From NCBI RefSeq assembly GCF_000313615.1, contig NZ_AMZQ01000001.1, positions 310,001-374,000 of the forward strand: a stretch of DNA of 64,000 bases. Reading direction: 5' to 3'. Below the pieces are notes generated by a model. It saw only the letters and a program-made list of their open reading frames with translations. It was not told the origin of the DNA and ran no database searches. A program made the translations under genes and the position numbers. Every line of letters starts with the position of its first letter. Position 1 is the stretch's first letter. Below, piece after piece: positions 7,624-21,133 of this stretch. Source of the stretch: Campylobacter showae CSUNSWCD (GTDB lineage Bacteria; Campylobacterota; Campylobacteria; Campylobacterales; Campylobacteraceae).

Positions 7624-8335
7624 AAAAATCACCATAAAAGCATTTAAATATAATCCGTTGAGCAAAATTTCAAAGCCGCATTTCGCGACCTACGAGCTAG
7701 AAGAAACCGACGGCATGACGCTTTTTATAGCGTTAAATCAAATTCGTGAGAAATTTGACCCGGATCTTAGCTTTGACTTTGTTTGCCGTGCCGGTATCTG
7801 CGGTAGTTGCGGTATGTTAGTTAATGGTACGCCAAAGCTTGCTTGCCGTACGCTAACCAAAGACTATTCAGGCGGCGTGATTGAGCTTATGCCTTTGCCG
7901 GTATTTAAGCTGTTAAAAGATCTAAGCGTAGACACGGGCAACTGGATGAACGCGATGAGTAAGCGCGTGGAGAGTTGGATACACACTGACCACAAGACCG
8001 ATATCTCTAAGCTTGAGGAAAAAGTCCAGCCTGAAGTAGCGCAAGAGGTATTTGAGCTTGACCGCTGCATCGAGTGTGGTATTTGTGTAGCTGCGTGCGG
8101 TACGGCTATCATGAGGCCTGATTTTATTGGTGCGGTAGGGCTTAACCGCGTAGCTAGATTTAAAATCGACGCGCTAGATAAACGAACCGACGAGGACTTT
8201 TATGAGCTTATCGGCGATGACGACGGCGTGTTTGGCTGTATGACTTTGCTAGGCTGCGAGGATAACTGCCCTAAACACCTTCCGCTTCAAAGCAGGATCG
8301 CATATATGCGCAGAAAGATGGCTGTAATAAAGTAG
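7616..8335 (+). CDS. frdB: fumarate reductase iron-sulfur subunit
   Basis: The 239-residue protein has a plant-type [2Fe-2S] domain with Cys 57, 62, 65 and 77 ([10 protein letters not shown] then LAC). Further on it has [12 protein letters not shown] and [13 protein letters not shown] clusters for the [4Fe-4S] and [3Fe-4S] centres. It wires electrons from the haems of FrdC to the flavin of FrdA. The start overlaps the frdA stop by eight bases, so translation is coupled. A strong terminator follows directly, which ends the frdCAB operon. Confidence 0.97.
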
Positions 8336-8337
8336 CC

Positions 8338-8360
8338 AAGGGGTCGTGAGACCCCTTTTT
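8338..8360 (+). terminator. Rho-independent terminator of frdCAB
   Basis: Perfect inverted repeat AAGGGGTC / GACCCCTT (8338-8345 with 8350-8357) around a GTGA loop, running into a T tract. It begins two bases after the frdB stop codon. Confidence 0.92.
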
Positions 8361-8605
8361 AAATTTAACTTCAAATTTTACTTCTATTTCTATTTTGCTT
8401 TTTTCTCAAATTTGTTTTTTAATTAGGTTCAATTTGTTCAAATTTGATGATCTATGCTGTATGTATTTTTACAAAAAACAGGCGTACAAAAAACGTCAAA
8501 TTTTGCTTTAATAAAAATAGTAGCATCTTTGGTCTAGTCAGGCTTATTTTTTATTTTTAGAAGTATTACAAGTTAAAAATGTCTTTAAATTTGTGTTTTA
8601 GTAGA

Positions 8606-8645
8606 TTTTGAAATCTTGTAAAAATGATAGATGGTGGAAGCGAGG
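8606..8645. repeat. distal attachment site, copy of the ssrA 3' end
   Basis: Forty bases identical to 19192-19231. The identity ends at 8645, after which the sequence is no longer tmRNA. Only the last 14 nt of the gene plus downstream flank are duplicated, so this copy cannot encode a tmRNA. Confidence 0.93.
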
Positions 8646-8981
8646 TTGTTCGATATTTAGCTTTAAATATCGTATTTATCGCACTTCTATAGAAAATAAA
8701 GCCATTTTTTACACACTTAAAAACACATCCGAACTATTTTACGATGTAATAAAAAATTTAAGATATTCGGAGATAAAAAATTGGTAATGAAAAGTTTGGT
8801 TTTCAATACAAAAACGAGGAAAAGCCCTAAAATAGGCACTTTGCGATTTAAGTATTTGCCGTTTTTAAGTTTCAAACGCTTAAACGGCTAAATTTTCTTA
8901 AGAATTGAGATGTTTCACGGCTTTTTTAGCTCGAAACTTAATTAAGCTTCGTTTGTGAAACAAAAGCCGTTTTTATTTGTT
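8646..8981. other. non-coding left end of the element with a hairpin and an integrase arm-type site
   Basis: No gene is seen in these 336 bases. Five bases inside the att repeat lies a perfect 9-bp hairpin (8651-8659 with 8664-8672, 4-nt loop). At 8711-8722 the sequence ACACACTTAAAA matches 11 of 12 bases of the ACACACTCAAAA boxes found beside the integrase gene at the other end. An imperfect inverted repeat around GCCGTTT/AAACGGC near 8868-8890 and a CGGCTTTT/AAAAGCCG pair further on could end the toxin-antitoxin transcript. Confidence 0.55.
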
Positions 8982-9260
8982 TCACGCCTGCCACTCGTTG
9001 GCTTTGTAAATGCCCAAAACGTAAATAGCCCCGTTCTCTATCGCGTAAGGTATCACATAGCTTTTAAAAATCAAGTCTCTTATGCTCTCATCGTCAAAAT
9101 TAATAGACTTGCGACAAATAAGGGGCGTTTGCGCCGTGCGCTCTATCTTTGCGATAAGCTCGTTTCTAAACTCTCGCGCCCTGCTTAGGCTGTCTTTTGC
9201 TATGAAGTCGAATATCGTCTTTAGCTCGCGCTCGAATTTAGGCTTGTATTTTATTACCAT
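8982..9260 (-). CDS. RelE/ParE-superfamily toxin
   Basis: The 92-residue basic protein starts MVIKYKPKFERELKTIFDFIA and ends with the strand pair YVIPYAIENGAIYVLGIYKAN. This is the usual RelE/ParE layout: two N-terminal helices followed by a beta sheet with conserved Arg and C-terminal aromatics. Such toxins are either mRNA endonucleases or gyrase poisons; the sequence does not decide which. Its start overlaps the antitoxin stop by seven bases, antitoxin first, the standard order. It is the gene nearest the outer end of the element, where such modules often stabilise it. Confidence 0.82.
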   Translation of the reverse strand: MVIKYKPKFERELKTIFDFIAKDSLSRAREFRNELIAKIERTAQTPLICRKSINFDDESIRDLIFKSYVIPYAIENGAIYVLGIYKANEWQA

Positions 9261-9529
9261 TGCATAGCCCGCGCTTTTAGCTCGTCGTGGCTTATTGTTT
9301 CAAACTCTCCACGCCTGATAGCTTCAACGTCGGATAATATCTCGGCTTTGATAGCCTCTAGTTTTTTGCGCGCCTGCGCTTCGTCTATTGGCTCATTGCC
9401 TCTTAGGGCTTCATCGGCGCAACCGTCGTCGATAATCAACTTTTGATTAGTCGTATTAGCTAGCGCTTTACTTATTGCCACTATTTGGCTTATTAGCGTT
9501 TCATCTGCTCGTATGGTTAGAGTTTGCAT
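9254..9529 (-). CDS. antitoxin partner of the RelE/ParE-type toxin
   Basis: The 91-residue acidic protein is directly upstream of the toxin and overlaps it. The N-terminal part MQTLTIRADETLISQIVAISKAL looks like a short beta strand and helix for DNA-binding dimerisation. The C-terminal half (EAQARKKLEAIKAEILSDVEAIRRGEFETISHDEL) is a charged helix of the kind that wraps the toxin. Such antitoxins usually repress their own promoter. No family name can be assigned from sequence alone; the pairing and order carry the call. Confidence 0.72.
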   Translation of the reverse strand: MQTLTIRADETLISQIVAISKALANTTNQKLIIDDGCADEALRGNEPIDEAQARKKLEAIKAEILSDVEAIRRGEFETISHDELKARAMQW

Positions 9530-9685
9530 ATCCTGGCCTTTGTTTTAAAATCCTATGAGCCATTTTAACTGCTCGGGGCTTAGGGTTTTATTAGTGTTCG
9601 GTTTTTCGTTCGTCCATATTCGCGAAATAGGGCTTAATTACGCTAAATTTAAGCGTTTTTACTGTGTTGTAGCGTTCGGTTTTTA

Positions 9686-9991
9686 CTACTTCTTTTTGTA
9701 TTCCCTATTAAACACGCTGTAGGCTTCTGCGTTTGCGAAGTCGTCGCGGTCGAATATCGGGCTTTTATCTCTAAACCTCATCAGTAAATTTAAATAAGCC
9801 TCTTTGGGGTTATCGCTCACATCTAACAAAGCCTTTAAATACTCGTCTTTGTATCGCCCGAATGAAAAATCTTTGTAAATCGTTTTAGGGGCTAAATTTA
9901 GCTTGTAGGCTACGGCGTGAGCCATTAGGCGTAAGTCGTCTTTGAAAAATCGCGATAACTCATAAAATAGGGCTATGTCGTATGTTTTCAA
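9686..9991 (-). CDS. hypothetical protein of the element (101 aa)
   Basis: A 101-residue soluble protein, MKTYDIALFYELSRFFKDDL and onward, mostly helical with many Lys/Arg and Asp and no recognisable motif. The start is a TTG at 9991 inside the TTGA that also contains the stop of the upstream TerS-like gene, so it depends on translational coupling. If that gene is a small terminase, this one could be a packaging or head-redirecting factor, but nothing in the sequence shows it. Confidence 0.6.
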   Translation of the reverse strand: MKTYDIALFYELSRFFKDDLRLMAHAVAYKLNLAPKTIYKDFSFGRYKDEYLKALLDVSDNPKEAYLNLLMRFRDKSPIFDRDDFANAEAYSVFNREYKKK

Positions 9992-10434
9992 TCGTCGCGC
10001 TTTATTATGATTTGAGTAGGGGCAAATAGCGCGCCTTGCTCTTGTAGCTCGTAATTTTTACCCAGTATCGTCTCTTTGTTTCTAGCCGTTATCCTGCTGT
10101 GTAGTTCAATGTCGCCCAGGTCGCCCGCTTCTTGCAGTAGCCTATTGGCCATTATTTGGTTTTTAATCGCCGTTTGCTTGAAAAAAGTTACCGCCCTTGC
10201 GTTGTCGCTTACTACCTGCGTCACGGCTTCGCGTTCGTATTCGTTTAGATCGGATAGTTCGGTTAGGTACTGCGTGCCTTTAGCTATCGTGCTTTTTAGA
10301 TTTTGGCTTATGCCCTTAGTGATGTTATTTATCGCGCCTGCGCTGAGGTTAAAAAGCTTTTGTAGTGCTCTTTGGCTCATTCCTGCTTTATGCTTGGCTA
10401 ATATCTGCGCTCTTACTTCGGGCGTTATTTTCAT
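9988..10434 (-). CDS. HTH protein, possible small terminase (TerS-like)
   Basis: The 148-residue product starts with a helix-turn-helix (MKITPEVRAQILAKHKAGMS, then QRALQKLFNLSAGAINNITKG). A long helical middle follows, and it ends in a short beta segment (APTQIIIKRDD). This three-part plan, DNA-binding head, oligomerising helices and C-terminal strand, is that of small terminase subunits, and the IELHSRITARNKETILGK stretch resembles phage TerS proteins. A transposon or regulatory HTH protein is the alternative. The start overlaps the upstream AlpA-like gene (ATGA). A TerS without a large terminase is what many phage satellites carry. Confidence 0.45.
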   Translation of the reverse strand: MKITPEVRAQILAKHKAGMSQRALQKLFNLSAGAINNITKGISQNLKSTIAKGTQYLTELSDLNEYEREAVTQVVSDNARAVTFFKQTAIKNQIMANRLLQEAGDLGDIELHSRITARNKETILGKNYELQEQGALFAPTQIIIKRDD

Positions 10435-10622
10435 TTTACCGCCTTTAGCTCGCTTACGGCTTGATTTACCGCTTCGCGTTCGTATCTTACGGCGCGCCCT
10501 ATCTTGACAAAGGGTAATACGAAGTTAAAGCGGTCTTTGTATTTGTCGCTTCTCATCTTAGTAAGCGTGCTTTGCGATAAGTTTAAAATTTGCCCTACCT
10601 GCTTTGGCGTTAATAGCTCCAT
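10431..10622 (-). CDS. AlpA/excisionase-type small DNA-binding protein
   Basis: The 63-residue product, starting MELLTPKQVGQILNLSQSTL, is a MerR-like winged helix of the HTH_17 type. It has the usual LTPKQVGQILNLS helix pair and the closing GRAVRYEREAVNQAV wing. The frame is open upstream to 10784, but that part is unlike a protein and includes a palindrome, while the ATG at 10622 has an AAAGG site in front. Such proteins act as excisionases or activators. It is a second copy of this class in the element (see 16604-16795). Confidence 0.75.
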   Translation of the reverse strand: MELLTPKQVGQILNLSQSTLTKMRSDKYKDRFNFVLPFVKIGRAVRYEREAVNQAVSELKAVK

Positions 10623-10701
10623 TGTTTGCCTTTGTGACGTTTTGAGGTATTTTAACGCGTATTGGGGTGTTTGTTGGTTTGTGGTGGGGTCTTGGTTGCG
10701 C

Positions 10702-10798
10702 TTCCATAAAAAAATGGAGGCGAAATAATTGCACTGTGACAAGTCGTTACGGTGCGTTCTGGTTGTATGACGGGCTACGGACAAATAGGGCGGGGTGT
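10702..10798. repeat. palindrome and G-rich box shared with the iteron region
   Basis: At 10702-10719 a palindrome with arms TCCAT/ATGGA around an A tract matches the reverse complement of 12246-12263 in 17 of 18 bases. At 10781-10798 the box ACAAATAGGGCGGGGTGT matches 12132-12149 in 16 of 18 bases. Both shared boxes sit upstream of the small HTH gene and again next to the iterons. They are probably binding sites for an element protein. Confidence 0.55.
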
Positions 10799-10850
10799 TC
10801 GATAAAATAGACTTATGGAGGAGGGCTATTTAAAGCCCCCTTTGATAAGC

Positions 10851-11228
10851 CTACGCGCCCTTTAGGTCTTTGTGCCACGTGTAGCTACCTTTTGGCGTGA
10901 TTTGCTCTTGTAGCTTGTCGTTTAGCTCGCTTAGGTGCTTTATTTGCTCTTCTAGCCTTTCGCACTCGCTAGCATAATAATTAAAAAGGCGGTATGCTTG
11001 TAAACCGGTTTCAAATAAGGCGTCCGCCATTCCCTTTGCTTCTCTCTTTGCTATCTCGGCTTTAAACGCTTCGCGCGCCTTGTCGCCTCCTGCTCGCTCT
11101 AGCTCAATACCTCGCTTATGCAAGCTAGTCCATAACCTAAAAGCGAAATCTTTTAACTGAGAATAGCTGGGCGCGTCTGCGCCCTTAGCTAAATATCTCA
11201 AAGCTTGGTTAAAGTCTCTTTTGTTCAT
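10851..11228 (-). CDS. hypothetical protein of the element (125 aa)
   Basis: A 125-residue soluble helical protein. Its C-terminal half (ASECERLEEQIKHLSELNDK) has a heptad-like pattern consistent with a short coiled coil. No known domain is recognised. The start overlaps the stop of the upstream 84-residue gene (11225-11228), so the two form a coupled pair driven from the array of boxes at 11509-11613. Confidence 0.65.
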   Translation of the reverse strand: MNKRDFNQALRYLAKGADAPSYSQLKDFAFRLWTSLHKRGIELERAGGDKAREAFKAEIAKREAKGMADALFETGLQAYRLFNYYASECERLEEQIKHLSELNDKLQEQITPKGSYTWHKDLKGA

Positions 11229-11479
11229 TGTTCGCTCCTTTGGGTTAGTTCCTCTTTTTGCTCGGATATTTTCTTATCTGCGTAATCTCGCACCGCTTGG
11301 GCTACGTCGTCAATCGCCACGCTTAGGAAATAAGAGGCGTTTGCCATTGCGGTGGCGTTGGTTCCTACGCCTTTTTGCAGATAGGGCAAAGCATACACTA
11401 GCGTGCTTATTGCATTTAGCGCGCTTGGTATCTCGTTTGTTAAGTCTAGCTCGTCGGCTATGTCGAATGTTAATTGCAT
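11225..11479 (-). CDS. hypothetical protein of the element (84 aa), first gene of the leftward operon
   Basis: An 84-residue acidic protein beginning MQLTFDIADELDLTNEIPSA and ending in a charged helix. No family recognised. GGAGACCC lies just upstream of the ATG. It is the first gene leftwards of the divergent control region and so is the likely first target of the repressor encoded at 11650. AMANASYFLSVAIDDVAQAV suggests a helical core. Confidence 0.65.
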   Translation of the reverse strand: MQLTFDIADELDLTNEIPSALNAISTLVYALPYLQKGVGTNATAMANASYFLSVAIDDVAQAVRDYADKKISEQKEELTQRSEQ

Positions 11480-11508
11480 TGGGTCTCCTTTGTGGTAAGT
11501 TTTTCATC

Positions 11509-11613
11509 GTTGATTAAATATTTGATGAAATAATATCATCTTTGATTTAATAAGTCAAGTGTTTTTACAATCTTTGATGAAGTATTTTAATAATATTTTA
11601 CATTTTTGATTAA
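11509..11613. promoter_or_regulatory. array of TTTGATKAA boxes at exact 32-bp steps in the divergent control region
   Basis: Copies of TTTGATKAA begin at 11509 (first base G), 11541 (ending TTA instead of TAA), 11573 and 11605: steps of 32, 32 and 32 bp, about three helical turns. An extra copy starts at 11521. The region lies between the leftward operon and the rightward repressor gene. The last box is directly upstream of a TACAAT -10 element at 11620-11625 in front of the repressor, so a protein bound there would block that promoter. The boxes and spacing are seen; their role as operators is inferred. Confidence 0.65.
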
Positions 11614-11649
11614 AAATGATACAATTAGCTAAAATTTAAAAGGGCAAAA

Positions 11650-11856
11650 ATGCTAAAAAGTGATTTTTTAAAGAGGTTGAGCGATTTGGGCTTATCGGTC
11701 AATGACTTCGCAAATTTAACAAAACTAAACGCAGGCAGTATTTACAACTGGAATGACGAAAAAAAGCCTATTCCGTCTTGGGTTGAGCCGTTTTTGGTAT
11801 GCTACGAAAAATCCACACGCTACGAAAAAATCAAAGAATTAACTAAAGACCTTTAG
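11650..11856 (+). CDS. small HTH repressor-like protein
   Basis: The 68-residue product is the only plus-strand gene of the element. It contains an HTH reading LKRLSDLGLSVNDFANLTKL, then NAGSIYNWNDE, the recognition-helix pattern of Cro/CI-type regulators that use a Trp-Asn turn. It stands divergent from the leftward operon with the 32-bp box array between. A TACAAT -10 and an AAAGGG ribosome site precede it. It is the best candidate to bind the boxes and keep the element silent, with the KilAC protein as possible counteractor. Confidence 0.75.
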   Translation: MLKSDFLKRLSDLGLSVNDFANLTKLNAGSIYNWNDEKKPIPSWVEPFLVCYEKSTRYEKIKELTKDL

Positions 11857-11933
11857 CCTCATCGCTCCTAAACTCCTTTTAAATCCCACCGCTTTAAATC
11901 TCTCTGCGATAGCTATCGGTATTTAATTCCCCT

Positions 11934-12023
11934 AGCTACCTAAATTAAACTTACCTAGCTTTTAGCTACCTACGTTAAACGTACCTAGCTTTTAGCTCTA
12001 TGAATTAAACTCACCCAGCTTTT
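11934..12023. repeat. three tandem 30-bp iterons
   Basis: Units at 11934-11963, 11964-11993 and 11994-12023 have identical length and no spacers. Each begins AGCT, has TTAAAC at its centre and ends CAGCTTTT or TAGCTTTT. The second unit contains a near-perfect dyad ACGTT/AACGT, and the other two have weaker versions at the same place. The lack of spacers rules out a CRISPR array. Confidence 0.85.
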
Positions 12024-12040
12024 AGGGTTTTCCTCTTTTT

Positions 12041-12049
12041 TGTGGATAA
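12041..12049 (-). promoter_or_regulatory. DnaA box
   Basis: The sequence TGTGGATAA is the exact complement of the TTATCCACA DnaA consensus and lies 18 bp after the last iteron. A single box could be chance, but its position beside iterons makes it notable. Confidence 0.55.
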
Positions 12050-12119
12050 CCCCTTTTTCAGATTTTCTTGAATAAATGCGTTTCTCTTTTTTGAGAAATC
12101 CAAAAAGGGCTGGTTGAAT

Positions 12120-12149
12120 ACCCCGCCCGTTACAAATCAGGCGGGGTGT
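12120..12149. repeat. GC-rich hairpin overlapping the shared GGCGGGGTGT box
   Basis: ACCCCGCC (12120-12127) pairs with GGCGGGGT (12140-12147) across a 12-nt loop. The right arm is part of the 18-bp box also found at 10781-10798. It is not followed by a T tract, so it is unlikely to be a plain terminator. Confidence 0.55.
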
Positions 12150-12245
12150 CGGTAGTGGCTTACTTTGCACCTATGGGCTAAATTTGACTTAGGGCATAAC
12201 GCGCCTATGGGCTAGATTAAATCTACCTCATCGCTTGGCTGTGCG

Positions 12246-12263
12246 TTCCATTTTTTTATGGAA
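12246..12263. repeat. palindrome TTCCAT-T6-ATGGAA, inverted copy of the 10702 box
   Basis: Six-base arms around a T tract. Its reverse complement equals 10702-10719 in 17 of 18 bases. The two copies lie about 1.5 kb apart. Confidence 0.6.
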
Positions 12264-12351
12264 TGACGATTTTTGGGCTACTCGCTCGTCGCCTGAAAAC
12301 TAAGGCAACGGCACAGGGCTAAAAAGCTTTTGGTTGCGTATGCTACCGCCT

Positions 12352-12368
12352 CCGCCCTTTGAGGGCGG
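12352..12368. repeat. strong GC hairpin, possible nick or regulatory site
   Basis: CCGCCCT and AGGGCGG form a perfect 7-bp stem with a 3-nt loop. It has no T tract on either side. In rolling-circle replicons such hairpins present the nick site to Rep; here that is speculation based on the Rep-like gene at 14043-14789. Confidence 0.45.
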
Positions 12369-12995
12369 GGCGTATTCATCTAAAGGGTTAAAATTCTCTC
12401 TTTTTTTAACATATCGCCTTTTATTTGTTAGAAAATACGCCAAAAATTAACAATACGCATTTAAACGCAAAATAAAGCCTTCTGTTTGATTTTAACTCTT
12501 TTTGATGTCTTTGTATGTTCTGGAGGCTCTTTTTAAAACGTAGCCCAGTTATTTTTATTCTATGGGCTATTATGTTAATTTACTCTCTTTGCTATTAGAT
12601 TAACGCTCGCTTGTTTCACTCGCTCGCTACTTTAAGGAAAATAGGCAAGGTTTATCAAAAAGGCGGGATTTTTGAGGGATGAAAAGTAAATGCTACCCTA
12701 CCTACTAAGGGGGTCTGAAACTTAAATTGCGTTTTTTCTCCGCCTGCACGAGTGCGAGCTAGCCCCGTGTGCGTGCTAGTTTGCGCTTTATCGAGGTGTC
12801 AAAATCCGTTTATTTTTCGTTATTGGAGTTGATAACGAGTGACAACGAAAAGCGATACACGTTTTAGAGTTTCTTAAAGTAAATGAAACTGGCAAAAAAC
12901 GGCTTAAGGATTTTTGGCAATTTGGGGTAAATTTGGCAATAAATATGCGATGAGGTTACGGGCGTTACAATGTAGCGTTGTGGTGATTTTTGTCT

Positions 12996-13610
12996 TTAGA
13001 CTCTTTGATATTCTGCGGGTATTTTGACAATCTCGCCGTTTAAATTTACCTCGTTCGGGAGTAATGCGCGCCTTATGTGTTTAGCTTTTATTTCTAGGCT
13101 CGCGGTCGCATTTTGCTTTAGCTCGTGGGAGTATTTGGCTCTATTTGGCGGTGTTAATAAGATTATGCTTTTGTGTGGGTATGTTTGGCGTATGGTTTTA
13201 ATTGTGGATACTAGGTCGGTATCCGCAGTTACTAAAAAGGCTTTGTCGAAATCGTCATTAAAGGCGTCTTGTAAAAGCCTAATGGCTATGTTAATGTCTG
13301 TCTGTTTTTCCTCGTGTGTAGCATATCGTGCTCCACATATGTGGCATTTAGCAAATTTCTTTTTAAAGCTTCCAAATATCGCTTTAACACCTGCGCCTTG
13401 CAATGCCTTAGTGTAAGCTTCGTATCTTTGCATTTTGGTTGGCAAATGTGTTGGAGGGGCTGAAAAATAATAAACCTCATTTAGTTCGTCACCCTCTTTT
13501 AAAAATAACTCACAAAGCTTGCGCAAATTTAGCCATTTAAGCGTATTATCTTTTAAGGCATCGATTGAGTGATAAAGATTAAAGCCGTCTATGTAAGCGT
13601 TGATTTTCAA
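12996..13610 (-). CDS. NYN-domain (PIN-like) ribonuclease family protein
   Basis: From the TTG at 13610 the 204-residue product reads (M)KINAYIDGFNLYHSI, the usual N-terminus of NYN/LabA-type proteins. Acidic residues expected for metal-dependent nuclease activity are present in AYIDGFN, EEKQTDINIAI and VTADTDLV. A CHICGARY zinc-ribbon-like insert lies in the middle. The frame is open to an ATG at 13727, but that would add 39 atypical residues, whereas AGGGAGG lies nine bases before the TTG. The family acts on RNA; the target here is unknown, and defence or toxin-like roles are possible for an island-borne copy. Confidence 0.8.
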   Translation of the reverse strand: MKINAYIDGFNLYHSIDALKDNTLKWLNLRKLCELFLKEGDELNEVYYFSAPPTHLPTKMQRYEAYTKALQGAGVKAIFGSFKKKFAKCHICGARYATHEEKQTDINIAIRLLQDAFNDDFDKAFLVTADTDLVSTIKTIRQTYPHKSIILLTPPNRAKYSHELKQNATASLEIKAKHIRRALLPNEVNLNGEIVKIPAEYQRV

Positions 13611-13620
13611 AGTCCGAGAC

Positions 13621-13639
13621 CTCCCTAAAAAATAGGGAG
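13621..13639 (-). promoter_or_regulatory. hairpin that hides the ribosome site of the NYN gene
   Basis: CTCCCTA and TAGGGAG form a perfect 7-bp stem with a 5-nt loop. The 3' arm in the transcript is the AGGGAG of the only good Shine-Dalgarno sequence for the TTG start at 13610. Folded RNA would block initiation. The complementarity is seen; a regulatory role is inferred. Confidence 0.5.
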
Positions 13640-13792
13640 CTCGGTTAGGGTGTTCCCTAAGTGGATAAACGTATTTTATCCATTTTGTGTTTAAATCTCG
13701 CTTTATTTGATACCTACTCGCTATCATAAGCTATCAGATAGATTTATTTTGCTTGACTTGTTTAAAAATGGACCGTATAATACGTCTTACAT

Positions 13793-14029
13793 TCAAGGGG
13801 CTCCTTGTGCCCCACTTTCTAAGTATTCAATCAAGCCTTCATCAAAACATTTTAAAATATCGTTTAAAAATATTTCTATCTTTGACGGTTCTATGCCGAT
13901 TATTATCTCTTTCAGCTTAGTTGATAGCCTAGGTGTGCCGTTTACGTTGAGTTTGTAAAGGTTTTCAAAATGAAAGGCGCGGTTTCTTATCGTGAGTATG
14001 AGCGAATAGCAAATTTTAACCTTTTTAAG
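13793..14029 (-). pseudogene. 3' remnant of an Abi-like (abortive-infection family) gene
   Basis: On the minus strand a 78-codon frame follows a TAG (14030-14032) but has no ATG, GTG or TTG start. It reads LKKVKICYSLILTIRNRAFH, then FENLYKLNVNG, and ends GLIEYLESGAQGAP before TGA at 13793-13795. The IRNRAFHFENL segment resembles the C-terminal R-N-x-x-x-H motif of Abi-type HEPN proteins. The missing 5' part suggests deletion between the Rep-like and NYN genes. It is too short for certain naming. Confidence 0.45.
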
Positions 14030-14042
14030 CTATCAGCGGTTA

Positions 14043-14789
14043 TCACGCCCTTAGCTCTCTTTTGTTATTCTTTGCCTTGTATGCGAGCTTTGCCGGCTGC
14101 GCTTTGGTCGCAATGTCGATTATTTGCGAGAAATCGCGTACGGCTTGGCGCAGTTGTAGCTCCAGGCGTTCGGCTCTAGGCAATAACGCGGGTTTATTTA
14201 AATCGATTATCGGGGCGGTTGCCTCTGCGCGATACAATGGCAAATTTAGATTATTCTTTTTGGCTTTGTCGTAAAAATAGACGCGCTCTAACGCCGTAAG
14301 CTCGGTTTTTAAATACGTCGTATCGCCTATTTGAGCTTTGTCGAATGCGTCCAGACAAAATGGTTCGGGGCGGTCGAAACATAAATCAACGCTCGAGACG
14401 TTATTAACCGCGCCTAAAAGCTCCGCTACGAGGTCAAAGGGCGGGGCGGGCTTGTGATATTGCTTTAGCCCGTAAAACTCAATCACGGCGCGCTGCCGGC
14501 ACTCGCTCGGGGCTTTTGTCGTGGCGTAAAATATGCTTAAATTTTCGAGTTCGTAAAGCTCGGTTATTTTTAGCCCTCGAAATTCATAACGATTGGATAT
14601 TTTTATCTCTTTCGTATCTTGCATTTTTCGCCACTTCAAGCCGTGATTTTTGGCTATGCTTTTAAGTAGCTCTATTTTGGTGTAGTGCTTGCGCGTTACT
14701 CTGTTTTTTAGGAAACTCGCACGTATGGTGTCTATGGCTATGCTAGGCGTTTCAGCTAGTATTTGGGTAATTTGAGGTAATATTTCCAC
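14043..14789 (-). CDS. putative replication initiator (Rep-like) protein
   Basis: The 248-residue protein has an N-terminal part with helices suited to DNA binding (TRKHYTKIELLKSIAKNHGL). The core, NVSSVDLCFDRPEPF, then TYLKT, VYFYDKAKK and LPLYRAEATA, has a D-x-x-x-D, a Y-x-K and an R-x-E in the order seen in Rep_trans and filamentous-phage type initiators. The similarity is by pattern only. It lies upstream of the iteron core on the same strand and is not overlapped with the KilAC gene, with a hairpin (14805-14836) between them. A phage protein of another function remains possible. Confidence 0.45.
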   Translation of the reverse strand: MEILPQITQILAETPSIAIDTIRASFLKNRVTRKHYTKIELLKSIAKNHGLKWRKMQDTKEIKISNRYEFRGLKITELYELENLSIFYATTKAPSECRQRAVIEFYGLKQYHKPAPPFDLVAELLGAVNNVSSVDLCFDRPEPFCLDAFDKAQIGDTTYLKTELTALERVYFYDKAKKNNLNLPLYRAEATAPIIDLNKPALLPRAERLELQLRQAVRDFSQIIDIATKAQPAKLAYKAKNNKRELRA

Positions 14790-14804
14790 GTTTTACAATC
14801 CAAA

Positions 14805-14836
14805 GGGCGGTTAAACTTCGCTTGGCTTGACCGCCC
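14805..14836 (-). terminator. hairpin between the KilAC and Rep-like genes
   Basis: GGGCGGT (14805-14811) pairs with ACCGCCC (14830-14836) over an 18-nt loop. On the minus strand it is followed by only three T residues, so it may attenuate rather than end transcription. The 16-base sequence ATCCAAAGGGCGGTTA around it recurs at 15308-15323 inside the KilAC gene. Confidence 0.4.
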
Positions 14837-14854
14837 CCCTAGAAATCTTTAAAA

Positions 14855-15688
14855 TTAACCCTCTGCTAATTGAGGCGCATTTTTTGCTTTTATCGCCTCG
14901 ATTAGCTTTTTAGCTAACTTTACTTGACCCTTTGGCGTTATTAGAGTGATGAGGTTTAGCCCGCGCTCTCCGTTTGGCTTTGTAAACGTCTGCGGTTTGC
15001 GTCTAAAATAGCCCATATTTAGATACTTTTGCAAAGGCTCGTTATTGAGCATTAAAATCCCCAACTCGCGCATTAGAGCAAATAATCGTATCTCGCCCGT
15101 GTCTATGCCCTTATCTTTATCGCAAAGGATTTTCGCATATTCGCCTATTTTAATATCGCCCTTGCTAACCTCAACGGCTCGTGCGAAATCTACGTAAGGC
15201 TCATCGGCTTTTACTTTGCACTCTAGGCGTTTTACTTCGTCTTGCGTGTCTGCTAGCCTCAAAAGAATATCGGCAGCCGCTCGCGGGTCTGCTAATACGT
15301 CGTGAATATCCAAAGGGCGGTTACCGCCGTTTAGGATAAAATCGCTAGCCCAATCCCTGAATAAAATCGTCTGCGGCGTCTCCTCCAATTTAAAGCCTAG
15401 TGTAATAATGCCCTTTTTAGTCCAAAAGACCATTTTTTGAGGCTTTACTCCCTCCCTTCTATTAGAAGGGGGTGTATCTGTTAAGTTTCCTTTGCCGTCG
15501 TTATACATATCTTTGTAATAATAATGCACGCCCTCGCGGTATTCGGTCGCGCCTTTTATTCTTTGTAAGCTTACCGCGTTTTGCGTTACGCCGAAACCCT
15601 GCGCTACTTGCTTGTCCGACAAGCTCCAGGTGTCTTGATACTCCGAAATCTCTAAATTTAGATCGTTAAATGTTACTATTGCGCTCAT
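14855..15688 (-). CDS. phage-type antirepressor with C-terminal KilAC domain
   Basis: The 277-residue protein has an N-terminal DNA-interacting part (residues ~1-130; SLSDKQVAQGFGVTQNAVS and GIITLGFKL). The KilAC domain is at roughly 150-270 and includes DEPYVDFARAVEVSKGDIKI, LFALMRELGIL and PLQKYLNMGYFRR. Such proteins relieve CI-type repression or act as regulators in phages and islands. It overlaps the preceding small gene by four bases (ATGA). In this element its obvious partner is the repressor at 11650. Family call is firm, biochemical role inferred. Confidence 0.82.
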   Translation of the reverse strand: MSAIVTFNDLNLEISEYQDTWSLSDKQVAQGFGVTQNAVSLQRIKGATEYREGVHYYYKDMYNDGKGNLTDTPPSNRREGVKPQKMVFWTKKGIITLGFKLEETPQTILFRDWASDFILNGGNRPLDIHDVLADPRAAADILLRLADTQDEVKRLECKVKADEPYVDFARAVEVSKGDIKIGEYAKILCDKDKGIDTGEIRLFALMRELGILMLNNEPLQKYLNMGYFRRKPQTFTKPNGERGLNLITLITPKGQVKLAKKLIEAIKAKNAPQLAEG

Positions 15689-15921
15689 ATTTTGCCCCCT
15701 AAGTATCTTTTAGCCTTTTGGAAATCGTCGATACGCCATAATTTAAACCGCCTTTTAGGGTTATTTGCGTCAGTGCACCATCTAAATTTAACGATTTTTT
15801 CCCTAAAAAGCTCTACTAAATACTGATTTGCGTTACTTATGCCAAACACTCGCCCCGCGGTTATTTCCGTTCCGTCCCACATCATTTTTATTAATGCCGT
15901 TTTATGTTTGCTTTGTATCAT
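15685..15921 (-). CDS. hypothetical small basic protein (78 aa)
   Basis: A 78-residue basic protein, MIQSKHKTALIKMMWDGTEI and onward, with a probable winged-helix layout (strand WCTDANNPKRRFKLWRI). Overlaps its neighbours by four bases on both sides. A DNA-binding role is likely from charge and position, but no family is recognised. Confidence 0.65.
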   Translation of the reverse strand: MIQSKHKTALIKMMWDGTEITAGRVFGISNANQYLVELFREKIVKFRWCTDANNPKRRFKLWRIDDFQKAKRYLGGKI

Positions 15922-16148
15922 CGGTTATTCTCCTCTCTTATGCCTGCTTTTATTTCCAGCTCTTTTATGCTCTTACTCTGCGTCTGCACGATATGAAACA
16001 AATCGTAAGCGCAATCAAGCAAAGGTTGAGCTACGCCGTCTAAGCTCGCCACCTTGTAAGCGTGCAAATGCTTTTTAAAAGCCTTTAGCATAACCTCATC
16101 GTCCGCGCTAAAGCAAAGTTTGCTAGGCGTAAATACTAGCTTATTCAT
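15918..16148 (-). CDS. hypothetical protein (76 aa)
   Basis: A 76-residue helical protein starting MNKLVFTPSKLCFSADDEVM, with no recognised domain. A good AGGAG site precedes the ATG and the start overlaps the upstream stop. It is part of the tight early-type operon between alpA and the KilAC gene. Confidence 0.65.
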   Translation of the reverse strand: MNKLVFTPSKLCFSADDEVMLKAFKKHLHAYKVASLDGVAQPLLDCAYDLFHIVQTQSKSIKELEIKAGIREENNR

Positions 16149-16602
16149 TGTTCGCGCTCCTTTGAAAAAATCGCTCTCTTAGCCGTTGATTTTCGGCGTG
16201 GAGTGCGTTTAGCTCTCTCGCCTGCTCGGTCAAGGCGCAAAACAAATCAAAGGCTACGGGCTTAAAATTTGCCGTATCGTCTCCGCTTTGCTCGTCTTGT
16301 AAATGTTTGAGATAAATATCGGGGTAGCACTCTTTTAGCATTTTTACGTAAAGTTCGGGCGCGCTTTTTATCTCTTTGCACTCTCGCGCTATTTCGCCGA
16401 TACTCTTTTGATTTAGCTCCGTTTCGCGCTCCTCGAATAAATCAAAGGCTACGCAAAGAGCTTTAATCACGCCTTTTTGTAGGTCGCTTTGCTCCTGCTC
16501 GTCCGTCTGCGCGTAAATCGCCTTAATCTCGGGGTATTTGGATAAACGGGCATAAAAACGCCCGTATAGCCTCGCTTCGTTATCGTCTTTAAATGCTTTC
16601 AT
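16141..16602 (-). CDS. hypothetical protein (153 aa) with C-terminal coiled coil
   Basis: A 153-residue acidic protein, mostly helical. The last 30 residues (ALTEQARELNALHAENQRLR) form a likely coiled coil. An in-frame GTG at 16611 is possible, but the ATG at 16602 has AGGAG eight bases upstream and is preferred. Located directly downstream of the AlpA-like gene. No function can be assigned. Confidence 0.65.
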   Translation of the reverse strand: MKAFKDDNEARLYGRFYARLSKYPEIKAIYAQTDEQEQSDLQKGVIKALCVAFDLFEERETELNQKSIGEIARECKEIKSAPELYVKMLKECYPDIYLKHLQDEQSGDDTANFKPVAFDLFCALTEQARELNALHAENQRLRERFFQRSANNE

Positions 16603-16603
16603 C

Positions 16604-16795
16604 TTACGCACTCCTATCTTGTAAATAGGCGTCTAGCTCGCTCTTTAAAAAGCGGATAGTGCGCTCTGTTAAGCGTTTTGGCTTCGGGAAATCGTCGCGT
16701 TTCATAAAACGCCATAACGTAGCGGTCGAAATACCTAAATACTGCGCCGTCTCTTTCGGGCTTAGCGTGGCGTTCTTTACGATTAATGGGTTCAT
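16604..16795 (-). CDS. AlpA-family regulator
   Basis: The 63-residue product reads LSPKETAQYLGISTATLWRF, then MKRDDFPKPKRLTERTIRF and ELDAYLQ, the standard AlpA/HTH_17 pattern: recognition helix, FPKP turn and R-x-x-R wing. AlpA proteins activate excision or integrase genes in P4-like elements and Gram-negative phage satellites. It heads the leftward operon that ends with the KilAC gene, and lies just downstream of the 32-bp box array at 16909-17068. Confidence 0.85.
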   Translation of the reverse strand: MNPLIVKNATLSPKETAQYLGISTATLWRFMKRDDFPKPKRLTERTIRFLKSELDAYLQDRSA

Positions 16796-16908
16796 AATAA
16801 AAACTCCTTACGAGTGATATTATTTATCCGCGTGCGCACTTGAATAAATATGGGTGAATGTTAGCAAATAATACAGTGTGAGTCTAGTGCGAAAATAGCG
16901 TTAAAATC

Positions 16909-17068
16909 GATGTTAGAAATAAATTTTTAGCGTGAAAAATGATGTAAAAAATAAAAAAGTTTCACGGGTTTTGATGTAGATTTTTAAAAACTTGCATTGG
17001 TTGAGATGTAAAAAATAAATTTCTTACATCGATTTTAATGTAAGAAATTTTAAAAGTCCTTAAAATAG
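16909..17068. promoter_or_regulatory. five GATGT boxes at exact 32-bp steps
   Basis: Units start at 16909, 16941, 16973, 17005 and 17037, always 32 bp apart. Each begins GATGT (the last AATGT) followed by an A/T-rich stretch. The 16941 and 17005 units share 15 identical starting bases and the 16909 unit differs from them at two. The array is in the space between the 207-residue gene and the AlpA-like gene, where the alpA promoter should be. Spacing is seen directly; a regulatory role is inferred. The motif differs from that of the 11509 array but the step is the same. Confidence 0.65.
17017..17050 (-). terminator. AT-rich perfect 13-bp hairpin
   Basis: AAATTTCTTACAT and its complement ATGTAAGAAATTT flank an 8-nt loop. 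On the minus strand it is followed by ATTTTTTAC and lies 24 bases past the stop of the 207-residue gene, so it may end the integrase transcript. The stem is AT-rich, and it overlaps two boxes of the array, so it may also be an operator. Confidence 0.5.
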
Positions 17069-17074
17069 GGCGTT

Positions 17075-17698
17075 TTATTTTGGATTTTGCTTTTTTCGTA
17101 TCTTTTTAAAAGTAGGATTGTGCAGGGTTCTGATTGTTACTTTTAGGGCTTGTATCTCTTTTAAAAGGTCTGTTTTGCTTATTGTGTTTTGCTTGTTTTG
17201 CGGTGCGCTTACTAATAAGCCAAAAAGTGTATCTACAAAGTTTTTCCCCGCCTGCGCTATCGTTGGTATTTTGTATTCGTCGGCTACTCTGCTAAAAAAC
17301 GTTTGTAAATCTTTTATGGCTTGTGGTATCGTTTCGCTCATTGGTCTGCCTGCGCCATTTAGCCATTTATCCATATTTTTCAAAGTATCTAAAAAACTTT
17401 TTATCTCATCTAGCTCATAATCCATATCCGTTTTTTTTCTTGATGTATTGGGCATTGAGAAAAAAGCATAATCGGTAATAGTTTGAAGTATGCTTTGCAT
17501 AAGGTCGTAATCTTGGTCGTGATTAGTAATAAAGGCGTCTAAAAAATTTATTTTATTAAAAAGGTCGTCTCGCTGGCTTTCCGTGATTTGTTTTTTCTTA
17601 ATCAAAAATGGATAGATACTCGCCGCCTGAATGACATTGTTTTTAAATGCGGTCTGCACTTCTATTATTTTTTGTTGGTCTTTTTGCTCTTTGGTCAT
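17075..17698 (-). CDS. hypothetical protein coupled to the integrase (207 aa)
   Basis: A 207-residue soluble, helical, Lys-rich protein starting MTKEQKDQQKIIEVQTAFKN, without a known domain. Its ATG follows the integrase stop with no gap and a GGGGAG site lies at the end of the integrase gene, so the two are co-expressed. Lower GC than neighbouring element genes. A helper in integration or an immunity/cargo protein are both possible; nothing decides. Confidence 0.65.
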   Translation of the reverse strand: MTKEQKDQQKIIEVQTAFKNNVIQAASIYPFLIKKKQITESQRDDLFNKINFLDAFITNHDQDYDLMQSILQTITDYAFFSMPNTSRKKTDMDYELDEIKSFLDTLKNMDKWLNGAGRPMSETIPQAIKDLQTFFSRVADEYKIPTIAQAGKNFVDTLFGLLVSAPQNKQNTISKTDLLKEIQALKVTIRTLHNPTFKKIRKKQNPK

Positions 17699-18916
17699 TT
17701 ACTCCCCTTTCACTTCGTCTAAATAGTCGCTCCACCACTGCATAAGCTCGGCGCGCTCCTCTAGTCTTTGGCTTCTGTCGTATATTGATTTTATTTTGTT
17801 TCGCTCTCTGTGGTCTAAACAAAGCTCGATTATTTCCGCGCCTTTGCCGTGTCGTTTGATATTCTCGTTTAGTAGTGTTGAGGCGGTCGCCCTCAGTCCG
17901 TGAAATACCGTTTCACCGCCAAAGCCTAACCGCTTAAGCGCGTAGTTGAGCGTGTTCTCGCTTAGCGGTTTTAGGCTCGTTATGTCACTAGGAAATACGA
18001 AATCGCCCCGCCTTATCTCGTATTGAGCTTTTAAAAGCTCTTTTACTTGCCTGCTAATCGGCACGGCGAAGTCTGCGCCCATTTTCATATCGCTAGCGGG
18101 AAATACGATGAGGTTTTTATCAAAGCTAACATATTGCCATTTTAGCCCTCTGACGTTCGCGCTACGTAAAAAGGTATGCGCGCCGAATACTAACGCCTGC
18201 TTGGTGCTGTTTGAGCCTCTAAAGCCGTCAATCGCCCTTAAAAGCTCGCCTAGCCTTTCGGGGTCTGTTATCGCTCTAAAGTTCTCGCATTTTGAGATTT
18301 TAAAAGTATCGGCAAAAATAATATCCCTCGTCGGGTTATGTTCGATGTAGCCTTTATTGACGGCTAAGTCTAAAATCTTACGAAGTAGTCTAAACGTGCG
18401 TTTGCTCGTGTCGTGGCTTATGCCTTTTTTGGTCTCGGCTTCTTGTATGCGCTCTATCGTCTGCGCGTAATCCCTGCGCGCTAGCGTGCGAATATCGCCG
18501 TTTTTGAGATAGGGCATAAGGTAGTTATTTATCCGCCCCGCCTCTCTGCTAAGCGATGAGGTATTTTTAGCCCGCTCTTTTTCTATCCACTCGCGCGCCG
18601 CGTCCTCAAATTTAACCGCCTTTTGAGCTATCACGGCTTTTTTGATGTCCTCGCCCCTCTCTTTTAGCCGTTTTAGCTCTGTTGCTTTGGCTCTTGCTTC
18701 GGCTAGCGTGATACTTGGATACTTGCCTATGATGATTTGATTAGTTTTGCGCTCCTCGTCGGCATATCTAAAGACAAACGTTTTGCTTACGCCGTTTTTA
18801 GTCTGCGTCGCATAAATGTAAAGGTATGGAGTGGAAATATCTTTAATCCACTCTCTAGTCTTGCCGTCTTTTAGTGCGTAATTTTTTAGTTGGCTATCTT
18901 TCGCAAATGTCGCCAT
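17699..18916 (-). CDS. int: P4-type tyrosine integrase
   Basis: The 405-residue protein has the N-terminal DUF4102-like arm-binding domain (YLYIYATQTKNGVSKTFVFR then IIIGKYPSITLAEARAKA), a SAM-like core-binding domain, and a catalytic domain. Its active-site residues are Arg 251, His 339 with Arg 342 (HGLR), His 369 and Tyr 379. It recombines attP with the 3' end of ssrA. It points away from ssrA and lies about 280 bp from the attachment repeat. Arm-type boxes upstream of it overlap its promoter region, so Int may control its own expression. Confidence 0.95.
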   Translation of the reverse strand: MATFAKDSQLKNYALKDGKTREWIKDISTPYLYIYATQTKNGVSKTFVFRYADEERKTNQIIIGKYPSITLAEARAKATELKRLKERGEDIKKAVIAQKAVKFEDAAREWIEKERAKNTSSLSREAGRINNYLMPYLKNGDIRTLARRDYAQTIERIQEAETKKGISHDTSKRTFRLLRKILDLAVNKGYIEHNPTRDIIFADTFKISKCENFRAITDPERLGELLRAIDGFRGSNSTKQALVFGAHTFLRSANVRGLKWQYVSFDKNLIVFPASDMKMGADFAVPISRQVKELLKAQYEIRRGDFVFPSDITSLKPLSENTLNYALKRLGFGGETVFHGLRATASTLLNENIKRHGKGAEIIELCLDHRERNKIKSIYDRSQRLEERAELMQWWSDYLDEVKGE

Positions 18917-18948
18917 TTTCTCGCCTTTTTGTATGTGCGTAAGTGTGC

Positions 18949-19104
18949 TTTTGGGTGTGTTATTTTAATTTGCTTGTTTTTGGACACACTCAAAATCTAG
19001 TTTTTGCGCTTATGATTTTGCGCAAAGCCCGTTCTTGTCGGTTATCCTATTTTTGAGTGTGTAAAAATCTCGGTTTTTAGTCGCCCACACTCAAAAACAC
19101 ACTT
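18949..19104. promoter_or_regulatory. cluster of four integrase arm-type sites
   Basis: ACACACTCAAAA occurs exactly at 18984-18995 (plus) and 19051-19062 (minus), and with one mismatch at 18949-18960 (minus) and 19085-19096 (plus). A fifth copy with one mismatch lies near the other end of the element at 8711-8722. Placement between int and the att repeat, in both orientations, fits arm-type sites for the N-terminal domain of Int. No other feature is seen in 18917-19191. Confidence 0.65.
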
Positions 19105-19191
19105 ATTTTCTTAAAAATGTATGATATTCAATGAAATCTTACGAAATGCTAAAAGCGGTTTAAAGCTCGTATTTTAGGGGATTTTGAAGGC

Positions 19192-19231
19192 TTTTGAAAT
19201 CTTGTAAAAATGATAGATGGTGGAAGCGAGG
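19192..19231. repeat. proximal attachment site within and beyond the ssrA 3' end
   Basis: Forty bases identical to 8606-8645. The site includes the last 14 nt of tmRNA (19218-19231) and 26 nt of flanking DNA, so the gene is restored to full length after integration. Confidence 0.93.
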
Positions 19232-19575
19232 GGGATCGAACCCCTGTCCAAAAACAAACCGATTACAGCCTCTACACGCTTAGCAAAAGTGAAATTTTCA
19301 TCTAAAAGGGCTCACTTTCCAAAACCTTATTTTAGACTAAGACAAGATTTCGGTTAATAGCTCGTCAGGCTACCAACCTACGCTAGCTGGGGTTACTCGC
19401 CGTTATCTTAGCTAGTATCAGACTAGGCGAGGCTCAACTGAACTTACGCAGCTTTAGCGTAAGCAGGAGCGTAGTTAACGTTGTTTGCGTTTAAATTTAT
19501 TTGAGCTTTTTACGCTTTGCTCAAAGCGACGTGCCACCGTGACCGCTCTGCTCCTGTCGAAGCCAAGTCGCTCCC
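19218..19575 (-). ncRNA. ssrA: transfer-messenger RNA (tmRNA)
   Basis: The RNA begins GGGAGCGACTTGGCTTCGAC at 19575 and ends GCTTCCACCA at 19218, which form the tRNA-like domain with the T-loop GGTTCGAT. The reading frame for the tag runs from 19488 to 19447 and encodes ANNVNYAPAYAKAA followed by TAA (19444-19446). tmRNA rescues stalled ribosomes together with SmpB. A -10-like TATTCT lies at 19579-19584, six bases before the 5' end. The total is 358 nt. Its 3' end is the integration target of the adjacent element. Confidence 0.97.
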
Positions 19576-19641
19576 GTAAGAATAGGCTAAATTTAGCCTT
19601 GTTTTAAAGATTATGGATTATATTATTTTTTGTTTTTTTTG

Positions 19642-20049
19642 TCAAACGTCTAGTTTTTGCGGTATTTTTACGATATTTGCATCTAAGGGGCTGAAAAACT
19701 CGGCATCGTTTTCTATGTCGTTTTTGTATCTGTTAAACTGGTCGCTCAATAAAAGTAACCAGTCCACAAAATCTTCATTTGCCGGCCCTTGTAAATCCCT
19801 TGCTTCGCCGCAAATTTCCTCTGCTAACGTAGTTAACTTAATTATAGGATCAAGCCTCATAAAGCCTGCTGCGGATTTAATATTATGAAAAATTCTAAAA
19901 AGTTCACTAATATTGCTACCGTATCTATCGTGCCTGGCAAGGTTTATGATTAGCGGCTCCATTAAATCGCACATCAAAGTATAGTGCGATAAAAACTCCT
20001 CTACTATGTCGTATGAGTAGTCTATTTCAAGGCTTTTCAGTATTCCCAT
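19642..20049 (-). CDS. HPt-domain histidine phosphotransfer protein
   Basis: The 135-residue cytoplasmic protein is a single four-helix HPt domain. The phosphorylation site reads FRIFHNIKSAAGFM, with His 55 and the following K-S/G-A-A-G pattern. It would relay phosphoryl groups in a signalling cascade, possibly chemotaxis-related, but no partner kinase or regulator is encoded nearby. The gene is divergent from panB. The start at 20049 is the only sensible one. Confidence 0.82.
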   Translation of the reverse strand: MGILKSLEIDYSYDIVEEFLSHYTLMCDLMEPLIINLARHDRYGSNISELFRIFHNIKSAAGFMRLDPIIKLTTLAEEICGEARDLQGPANEDFVDWLLLLSDQFNRYKNDIENDAEFFSPLDANIVKIPQKLDV

Positions 20050-20133
20050 TGAGTTTCCTTAAATTTGTTGTCAGGATTGTAACATTTTTTTGATAAAATT
20101 AAAAATAAAATACCTAAATTTAAGGAAAAATTT

Positions 20134-20937: not shown

Positions 20938-21133
20938 CTTGTTTTAGCTAAATCTAGTCTGCACAGCAAATTTGATCATCCTGCAAACGACGGCAAATTT
21001 GAGCCTTAGGCGTTAAATTTGACGAACAGAGTTTGGTTTAAATTTGAACGCTTGCATTTACCCGCCCCTCGTCAAATTTGACGGGCAAATTTGGCTATCA
21101 AAACAAGACTAGATTAAAAACAAGGAGCGAGTT

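Follow-up and report, generated by a model that had tools for sequence, protein, structure and literature searches.

What kind of mobile element occupies the ssrA gene of Campylobacter showae CSUNSWCD is the question raised by the stretch analysed here, 64,000 nucleotides of contig NZ_AMZQ01000001.1 (positions 310,001 to 374,000), which is called the window below. A sequence-only reading of the window had proposed a compact integrative element of ~10.6 kb in ssrA, either a satellite dependent on a helper phage or an integrated plasmid-like replicon. Both descriptions fit, and the evidence joins them, with helper dependence being deduced from the sequence. In our view it is probably a phage satellite that passes through a plasmid-like free stage, which is packaged via its own small terminase subunit (TerS), in some relatives together with a large subunit (TerL), and whose multimers are resolved by the host recombinase XerH. 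Because it has a packaging gene and no recognised shell genes, it probably travels in the particles of other viruses. The plasmid-like side is drawn from the fold of its Rep protein (a weak match), a toxin-antitoxin pair and an Xer site in common with Campylobacter plasmids.

The element spans positions 8606-19231 of the window and is bounded by exact 40-bp direct repeats as the sequence-only reading had described, the outer copy at 8606-8645 and the inner copy at 19192-19231. The two copies are identical over 40 bp and 94% identical over 48 bp, and they formed the sole exact repeat of at least 16 bp with a spacing of 4-17 kb in the searched interval 6001-22000. The tmRNA gene ssrA, which is the integration target, was placed at 19218-19575 on the minus strand by ARAGORN and by Rfam (RF00023). 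The inner repeat thus extends into the 3' end of this gene, which stays intact; tmRNA models were the sole matches in the Rfam scan. The int gene (17699-18916, minus strand) lies near ssrA as had been claimed, starts ~280 bp inside the inner repeat, and encodes a tyrosine integrase of 405 amino acids (aa) with an arm-binding domain (PF00589, 4.3e-17; PF13356, 4.2e-12). An unoccupied ssrA site, for which a search in relatives had been proposed, was found in two of them (G023 and G005), where the tmRNA gene adjoins frdB without insertion. When the joined flanks of the window were aligned to these two, the ssrA side matched closely and the frdB-ssrA spacer was diverged, so the attB word is clear over the tmRNA end only.

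Homologues of Rep were found in 23 of 150 genomes, the own genome included. Up to 20 kb was fetched around 20 of the other 22 matches, leaving out the weak ones in G004 and G137, which together with the window gave 21 loci (window and L029-L048) from Campylobacter and related genera, including C. showae CC57C and two C. concisus strains. Best matches of 17 proteins of the window revealed a common gene order, with members missing here and there and most frequently in L042-L048. Its first half consists of int, an int-adjacent open reading frame (ORF), the AlpA gene, small ORFs, the KilAC gene, rep and cargo; its second half consists of an opposing helix-turn-helix (HTH) gene, small ORFs, an HTH gene, TerS, u101 or TerL, and the toxin-antitoxin pair. 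Nineteen elements lay beside a tRNA or tmRNA gene, and in 15 of them at least 14 nt of the gene's 3' end were repeated at the opposite boundary. No such repeat was found in L031, L037 (truncated by the end of its contig), L045 and L046; L030 and L034, having no tRNA call, were outside this survey. The elements bounded in this way measured 5.3-11.5 kb, and the integration targets across the family were ssrA and the tRNA genes for Ala, Phe, Val and Met. The conserved order in relatives, which the sequence-only reading had named as a check, is thus present. The smallest members, L047 and L048 (5.3-5.4 kb, at tRNA-Met, with 30- and 22-bp repeats), contained an integrase-size ORF, the small ORF u78 and rep.

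The identification of TerS is the central point for packaging. The window protein encoded at 9988-10434 (minus strand) gave matches at HTH level only when used alone, and searches of phage records and of viral contigs with it were without useful match. Its assignment as TerS is supported by synteny and homology: homologues with 37% identity in L038, L039 (C. concisus) and L041 overlap the start of a TerL ORF of 484-485 aa (L038 copy, PF03237 4.9e-27 and PF17289 5e-18); the small terminase family phrog_1206 was matched by three of eight TerS members (best E 1.8e-4), the window TerS not among them; and the family precedes TerL in local tailed prophages. The TerS profile matched 26 of the 150 genomes. 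In 17 further TerS loci the next ORF had 406-441 aa in 16 cases and was split in L091, and among four of these ORFs checked with Pfam, those of L085, L090 and L095 passed the terminase cut-offs and that of L083 was just below. Portal families were found beside the prophage TerS at L083 and L085, and a Gp13-like major capsid family at L095. The TerS-like gene of the sequence-only reading is therefore supported, and the KilAC protein matched phrog_63 (1.1e-27).

The neighbouring protein u101 (9686-9991, minus strand), which had escaped the sequence-only reading as a packaging-module protein, has a homologue just before TerS in the prophage loci L089, L090 and L095 (43-48% over residues 4-100). 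The ratio of nonsynonymous to synonymous substitution rates (dN/dS) was 0.02-0.21 for TerS, 0.05-0.17 for u101 and 0.07 for TerL (one pair), and all three genes are intact and under purifying selection. These genes bear on a rival explanation, an integrated rolling-circle plasmid which is stabilised by the toxin-antitoxin pair and a cer-like Xer site, uses Int for chromosomal residence and carries TerS as a passenger. A passenger would suit the distribution, as TerS was recognised in 9 of the 21 loci and not in the other 12. However, the purifying selection, and the finding that two packaging layouts, TerS with u101 and TerS with TerL, occupy one place in the gene order, argue against such a role. 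The plasmid explanation is also opposed by KilAC (an antirepressor-type protein; 14855-15688, minus strand; PF03374, 1.1e-21) and AlpA (16604-16795, minus strand; 63 aa; PF05930, 2.1e-8; PF12728, 1.4e-11), which are typical of phages and satellites; the sequence-only reading had named both genes correctly, and AlpA is an AlpA-like regulator or excisionase.

As had been noted before, the 19 scanned ORFs of the window element include no recognised structural, large-terminase or conjugation gene, and capsid, tail and lysis genes were likewise not recognised in it; the nearest structural match was that of TerS to the virion-protein family phrog_684, with an insignificant E of 0.03. The scan was extended to 10 more ORFs of L039, one of the three elements with TerL, and gave no capsid or portal family there. 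The TerL of L038, L039 and L041 was found nowhere else in the 48 genomes of the genus, except for a 58-residue fragment in G019. This satellite TerL was 64% identical to the TerL of Aggregatibacter phages S1249 and Aaphi23, and the likeness, together with the near absence from the genus, suggests a transfer between distant hosts. A swapped DNA-binding end of TerS was considered and rejected, since the pattern appeared in one pair only, the window and L090, with 7 of 59 positions identical in residues 1-60 and 28 of 70 in residues 61-130. Compared with most other prophage TerS proteins, both parts of the window TerS were about equally alike or the second was somewhat more alike, and compared with L092-L095 the second part (residues 61-130) was less alike.

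Rep is encoded at 14043-14789 (minus strand, GTG start) and may have a rolling-circle-initiator-like fold. The Rep-like gene of the sequence-only reading thus stood in part: the best fold match, weak and of middling strength, was to rolling-circle initiators, and no family was matched. Pfam scans of 16 Rep members gave no match to PF02486 (Rep_trans), which also matched nothing in five genomes, and a sequence search of the PDB with the Rep profile gave no match. Rep may start rolling-circle-type replication. The iteron core of that reading was likewise kept in part: repeat tracts are present at 16941-17042 and 11933-12022 as candidate iterons, and origin function could not be shown for them. 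The second tract, of three 30-bp repeats, lies within 11857-12995, a tract without supported ORF between the cargo slot and the opposing HTH gene (hth68), and this could possibly be the origin region.

The integrated plasmid draws support from the nearness of the Rep fold to RepDE/RepSTK1, but no Rep homologue was found in 72,556 plasmid records; weighing this with the packaging genes, we regard the explanation as unlikely. A megablast comparison of the whole element with plasmids and phages gave no useful match, the phage records being compared with the element DNA and not with the Rep protein. A peptide-pattern search of viral contigs did not find Rep either, and Rep was not seen in the portions of the 17 TerS-prophage loci that were listed. 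These two results disfavour a decayed prophage, stripped of its structural genes but still holding int, regulators and terS. Disrupted genes in several copies (int in L031, L038 and L041; rep in L032 and L033) would accord with decay, but a like size and order at different tRNA sites and the strong selection would not, and we regard a decayed prophage as very improbable. The same small chance is given to an integrative mobilizable element with conjugative transfer, in which a Rep_trans-like protein acts as a MobT-like relaxase. The fold of Rep is near the Rep_trans initiators, and MOBT relaxases are described in a passage of PMC11389934 as related to Rep_trans proteins. Against it, a relaxase or coupling gene was not recognised in the Pfam and PHROGs scans, in which no oriT search was included, PF02486 was silent as said above, and TerS would be left without explanation.

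The satellite with a plasmid-like free stage is also supported by a feature that the sequence-only reading had missed. By comparing non-coding stretches we found a block of ~200 bp near the far end of the element, which holds a difH-like XerH site. In the window this block occupies 8787-8985 (minus strand), starts at the parE stop, and consists of accessory inverted repeats and an Xer core, GTATTGAAAA-CCAAAC-TTTTCA, at 8788-8809 (minus strand). It stands just after parE, or after a RhuM-family gene following parE (L029, L032, L034, L038); 12 copies aligned over 197-200 bp with a mean column identity of 81%, and L034, which was missed by the pattern, also has the block. The RhuM-family gene (PF13310, 4.9e-102 for the L029 copy) overlaps the end of parE and precedes the block in these four loci. 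The last 26 bases of the block match one other site in many Campylobacter chromosomes, namely difH, for which the published tables in PMC2731167 and PMC3325230 were used for comparison. The arms of the element site are those of chromosomal difH, inverted TGAAAA/TTTTCA half-sites around 6 bp, and the central hexamer differs: CCAAAC in the window and CTAAAC, GTAAAC, GTAAAG or TTGGAG in other elements, against CTATAA, CTGTAA, CTGCAA or CTACAA in chromosomal difH. The chromosomal site of the window's genome (CTATAA) is equal to the difH listed for C. showae RM3277 in a table of PMC3325230.

The site had one match in the 64-kb window and none in 100 shuffles, and the pattern RTATTGAAAA-N6-TTTTCA matched 46 of the 48 genus genomes, mostly at chromosomal difH, with a reversed control matching none of the 48. 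Each of the 13 long elements in the fetched loci had exactly one difH-like site, and so had contig C10 of G035, the presumed far end of the L037 element. No site was found in the seven more distant elements L042-L048 or in the sampled stretches of the 17 TerS prophages. The inverted repeats GTGAAAC/GTTTCAC and TTAAGTTTC/GAAACTTAA of the block are nearly invariant, a pattern that suits DNA-binding sites and not covarying RNA. The block with its core looks as expected of a cer-like multimer-resolution site, and multimers are probably resolved there by host XerH.

Three other roles of the block were considered. An RNA was rejected, with 2 of 24 pairs covarying and the pairs almost invariant. Integrase arm sites were disfavoured because the block is conserved among elements whose integrases are ~27-38% alike. 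A packaging site shared with prophages was also rejected: the element ends matched the 17 prophage loci over 20-48 nt; the strongest of these matches, to L089 (E down to 3e-8), falls at the parE end outside the block, and a 25-nt match to L082 (E 6e-4) lies inside it.

Related sites were present on other replicons. The block matched 16 records of PLSDB, 13 of them Campylobacter plasmids, one of which was under E 0.01. On this one, the C. fetus plasmid pCFViADRI1362_P3, a base-by-base check placed the accessory sequence and the core GTATTGAAAAGTAAGATTTTCA in a stretch for which no genes are annotated, and this, with the toxin-antitoxin pair, is a further point in favour of the integrated plasmid. 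A match to a Candidatus Stammera plasmid (E 1e-3) was confined to the accessory part, and among 10 matching phage records there was no Campylobacter phage. Prophage-like loci in G002, G035, G036, G041 and, with mismatches, G046 have a related block with the centre GTATAA. The prophage-like L168 (G002:C7), L167 (G046:C39), L169, L170 and L171 have a difH-like site with similar accessory DNA; L168 encodes a D5-type primase-helicase and a 1620-aa polyvalent protein, the loci of G002 and G046 have an integrase 35% like a satellite integrase, and L167-L171 are candidate phages with a plasmid stage. Sites of difH type with other centres were also found on three contigs, which are 36.9, 7.8 and 28.1 kb long. 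Such sites on plasmid-size contigs include those of L177, L178 and L179 (small contigs of G003, G019 and G024) and of L184, a C. fetus plasmid. The central hexamer may be an identity tag which keeps replicons apart. One further element with the Xer block, a toxin-antitoxin pair and a RhuM gene was observed in L172 (G019:C1, at ~5.9-13.2 kb of the locus); it had no Rep match in the 150-genome Rep search, and the 58-residue TerL fragment lies in this stretch, ~6 kb from its Xer block.

Based on these genes, we infer the following cycle for the satellite. The KilAC and AlpA switches would release the element upon growth of a helper phage, Int would excise it, and Rep would begin rolling-circle-type replication. 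TerS, with u101 or, in three relatives, with their own TerL, would steer the element DNA into helper capsids. As several 10.6-kb copies may fit into one particle, host XerH would then cut the multimers at the difH-like site into monomers, one of which would afterwards be re-integrated by Int, and the distinct central hexamer should prevent recombination with chromosomal difH. A more specific proposal, which we hold tentatively and with somewhat less than even confidence, is a new type of satellite in which TerS or TerS-TerL without capsid genes loads multimers into unmodified helper capsids and XerH, at a difH-like site with a central hexamer of its own, restores monomers in the recipient prior to integration of one copy by Int. 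If it is true, it would explain how a satellite of 5-12 kb makes use of full-size capsids with no gene to shrink them.

Several points weigh against the packaged satellite. Excision, packaging, helper dependence and resolution are all deduced from the sequence, and for packaging this standing itself counts on the negative side, as do the 12 loci without recognised TerS. Genomes with a Rep match were not enriched for TerS outside the satellite (6 of 14 versus 11 of 34, Fisher p 0.52), in a count over the 48 genus genomes; one of the 14 matches is to a Rep fragment, and only part of the TerS loci were shown to be prophages. In the genome of the window itself there was no second TerS in the profile search and no L090-type TerL. 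That a helper need not be resident is illustrated in a section of PMC11389934, where a satellite-bearing strain is described whose 17 prophages all failed to move the satellite detectably.

The remaining genes of the element are all on the minus strand except one. The toxin-antitoxin pair that had been reported consists of a ParE-family toxin (8982-9260; PF05016, 4.2e-13) and an antitoxin-sized ORF before parE (9254-9529), assigned as its partner by position. Next to int is an ORF of 207 aa (17075-17698) with no Pfam, PHROGs or PADLOC family; in most relatives this slot also holds an ORF, mostly too diverged to align well, and dN/dS was 0.43 in one close pair. The conserved small ORFs u156 (16141-16611) and u76 (15918-16148) have homologues in relatives, and u78 (15685-15921) has one in 12 of 20 relative loci, including the two 5.3-5.4 kb elements. 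The sole plus-strand gene encodes a small HTH regulator (11650-11856; phrog_8898, 7.1e-16), which is found in relatives as are u84 (11225-11479) and u125 (10851-11228). A small HTH_17 protein (10431-10622; PF12728, 2.8e-6) was given a start from relatives, the closest homologues having 63 aa like itself. The variable slot contains a gene for an NYN-domain protein (12996-13727; PF01936, 1.9e-10), which had also been overlooked together with its match to a PADLOC defence candidate (HEC-09, 1.7e-56) and may be anti-phage cargo. In L036, L037, L040 and L041 the same slot holds an unusual cargo, a 293-aa NAD-dependent epimerase-family gene (PF01370).

In a literature survey that lacked most subscription papers and all preprints, we found no Campylobacter phage satellite and no satellite-borne Xer resolution site. 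The family also points to a cer-like branch of XerH/difH, a system known from chromosomes, on Campylobacter plasmids, prophage-like elements and satellites, which would be recognisable by the central hexamer. Two questions become testable with it: can a satellite supply TerS and TerL of its own yet lack a shell, and is Xer multimer resolution of use to satellites which travel as multimers?

Among known systems, the element is most readily compared with Gram-negative phage-inducible chromosomal islands (PICIs), which also have a size near 10 kb, a tRNA-type att site with int next to it, AlpA, their own replication gene (a putative one in our element), sometimes TerS, and no structural genes. 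Rpp, a primase-helicase and an att site unused by prophages are further PICI features; neither Rpp nor a primase-helicase appeared in the Pfam and PHROGs scans of the window, in which no search was aimed at either. The combination of int and an AlpA-type regulator that marks Gram-negative PICIs is present, and the general signs of a satellite are seen in the 19 ORFs without recognised virion genes and in a TerS family and u101 common with host prophages; at sequence level the element would thus appear to work like a PICI. It is unlike them in its rolling-circle-like Rep (by the weak fold match), conserved KilAC and Xer site, and some relatives differ further by TerL without recognised capsid genes. 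The TerS and TerL of three relatives resemble capsid-forming PICIs (cfPICIs), which are described in part of PMC10690885 as also encoding capsid, protease, portal and connectors, whereas none of these was recognised in the scanned ORFs of the window element or of L039. According to the same part of that source, P4 can occur as a plasmid, and a satellite type cited beside the phage-inducible chromosomal minimalist island (PICMI) in a portion of PMC11389934 packages several copies per particle. PICMI and P4 are likened to our element by lifestyle only.

The resolution block is like cer and psi in having recombinase half-sites around a short centre and conserved accessory DNA on one side, of near-constant length as in cer (197-200 bp in 12 elements). 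It differs from cer, for which a passage of PMC5357621 gives XerC/XerD and an 8-bp centre, by its XerH arms, its 6-bp centre and its place on an integrated satellite. The half-sites are those of chromosomal difH/XerH, so the likeness of the arms extends to that system. The elements CTXphi, RS1 and TLC, known as integrative mobile elements exploiting Xer (IMEX), are tied to the Xer system in a section of PMC7567579, in which RS1 is a satellite. Unlike IMEX, whose integration at dif is driven by Xer, the element described here integrates at ssrA or tRNA genes beside its own int.

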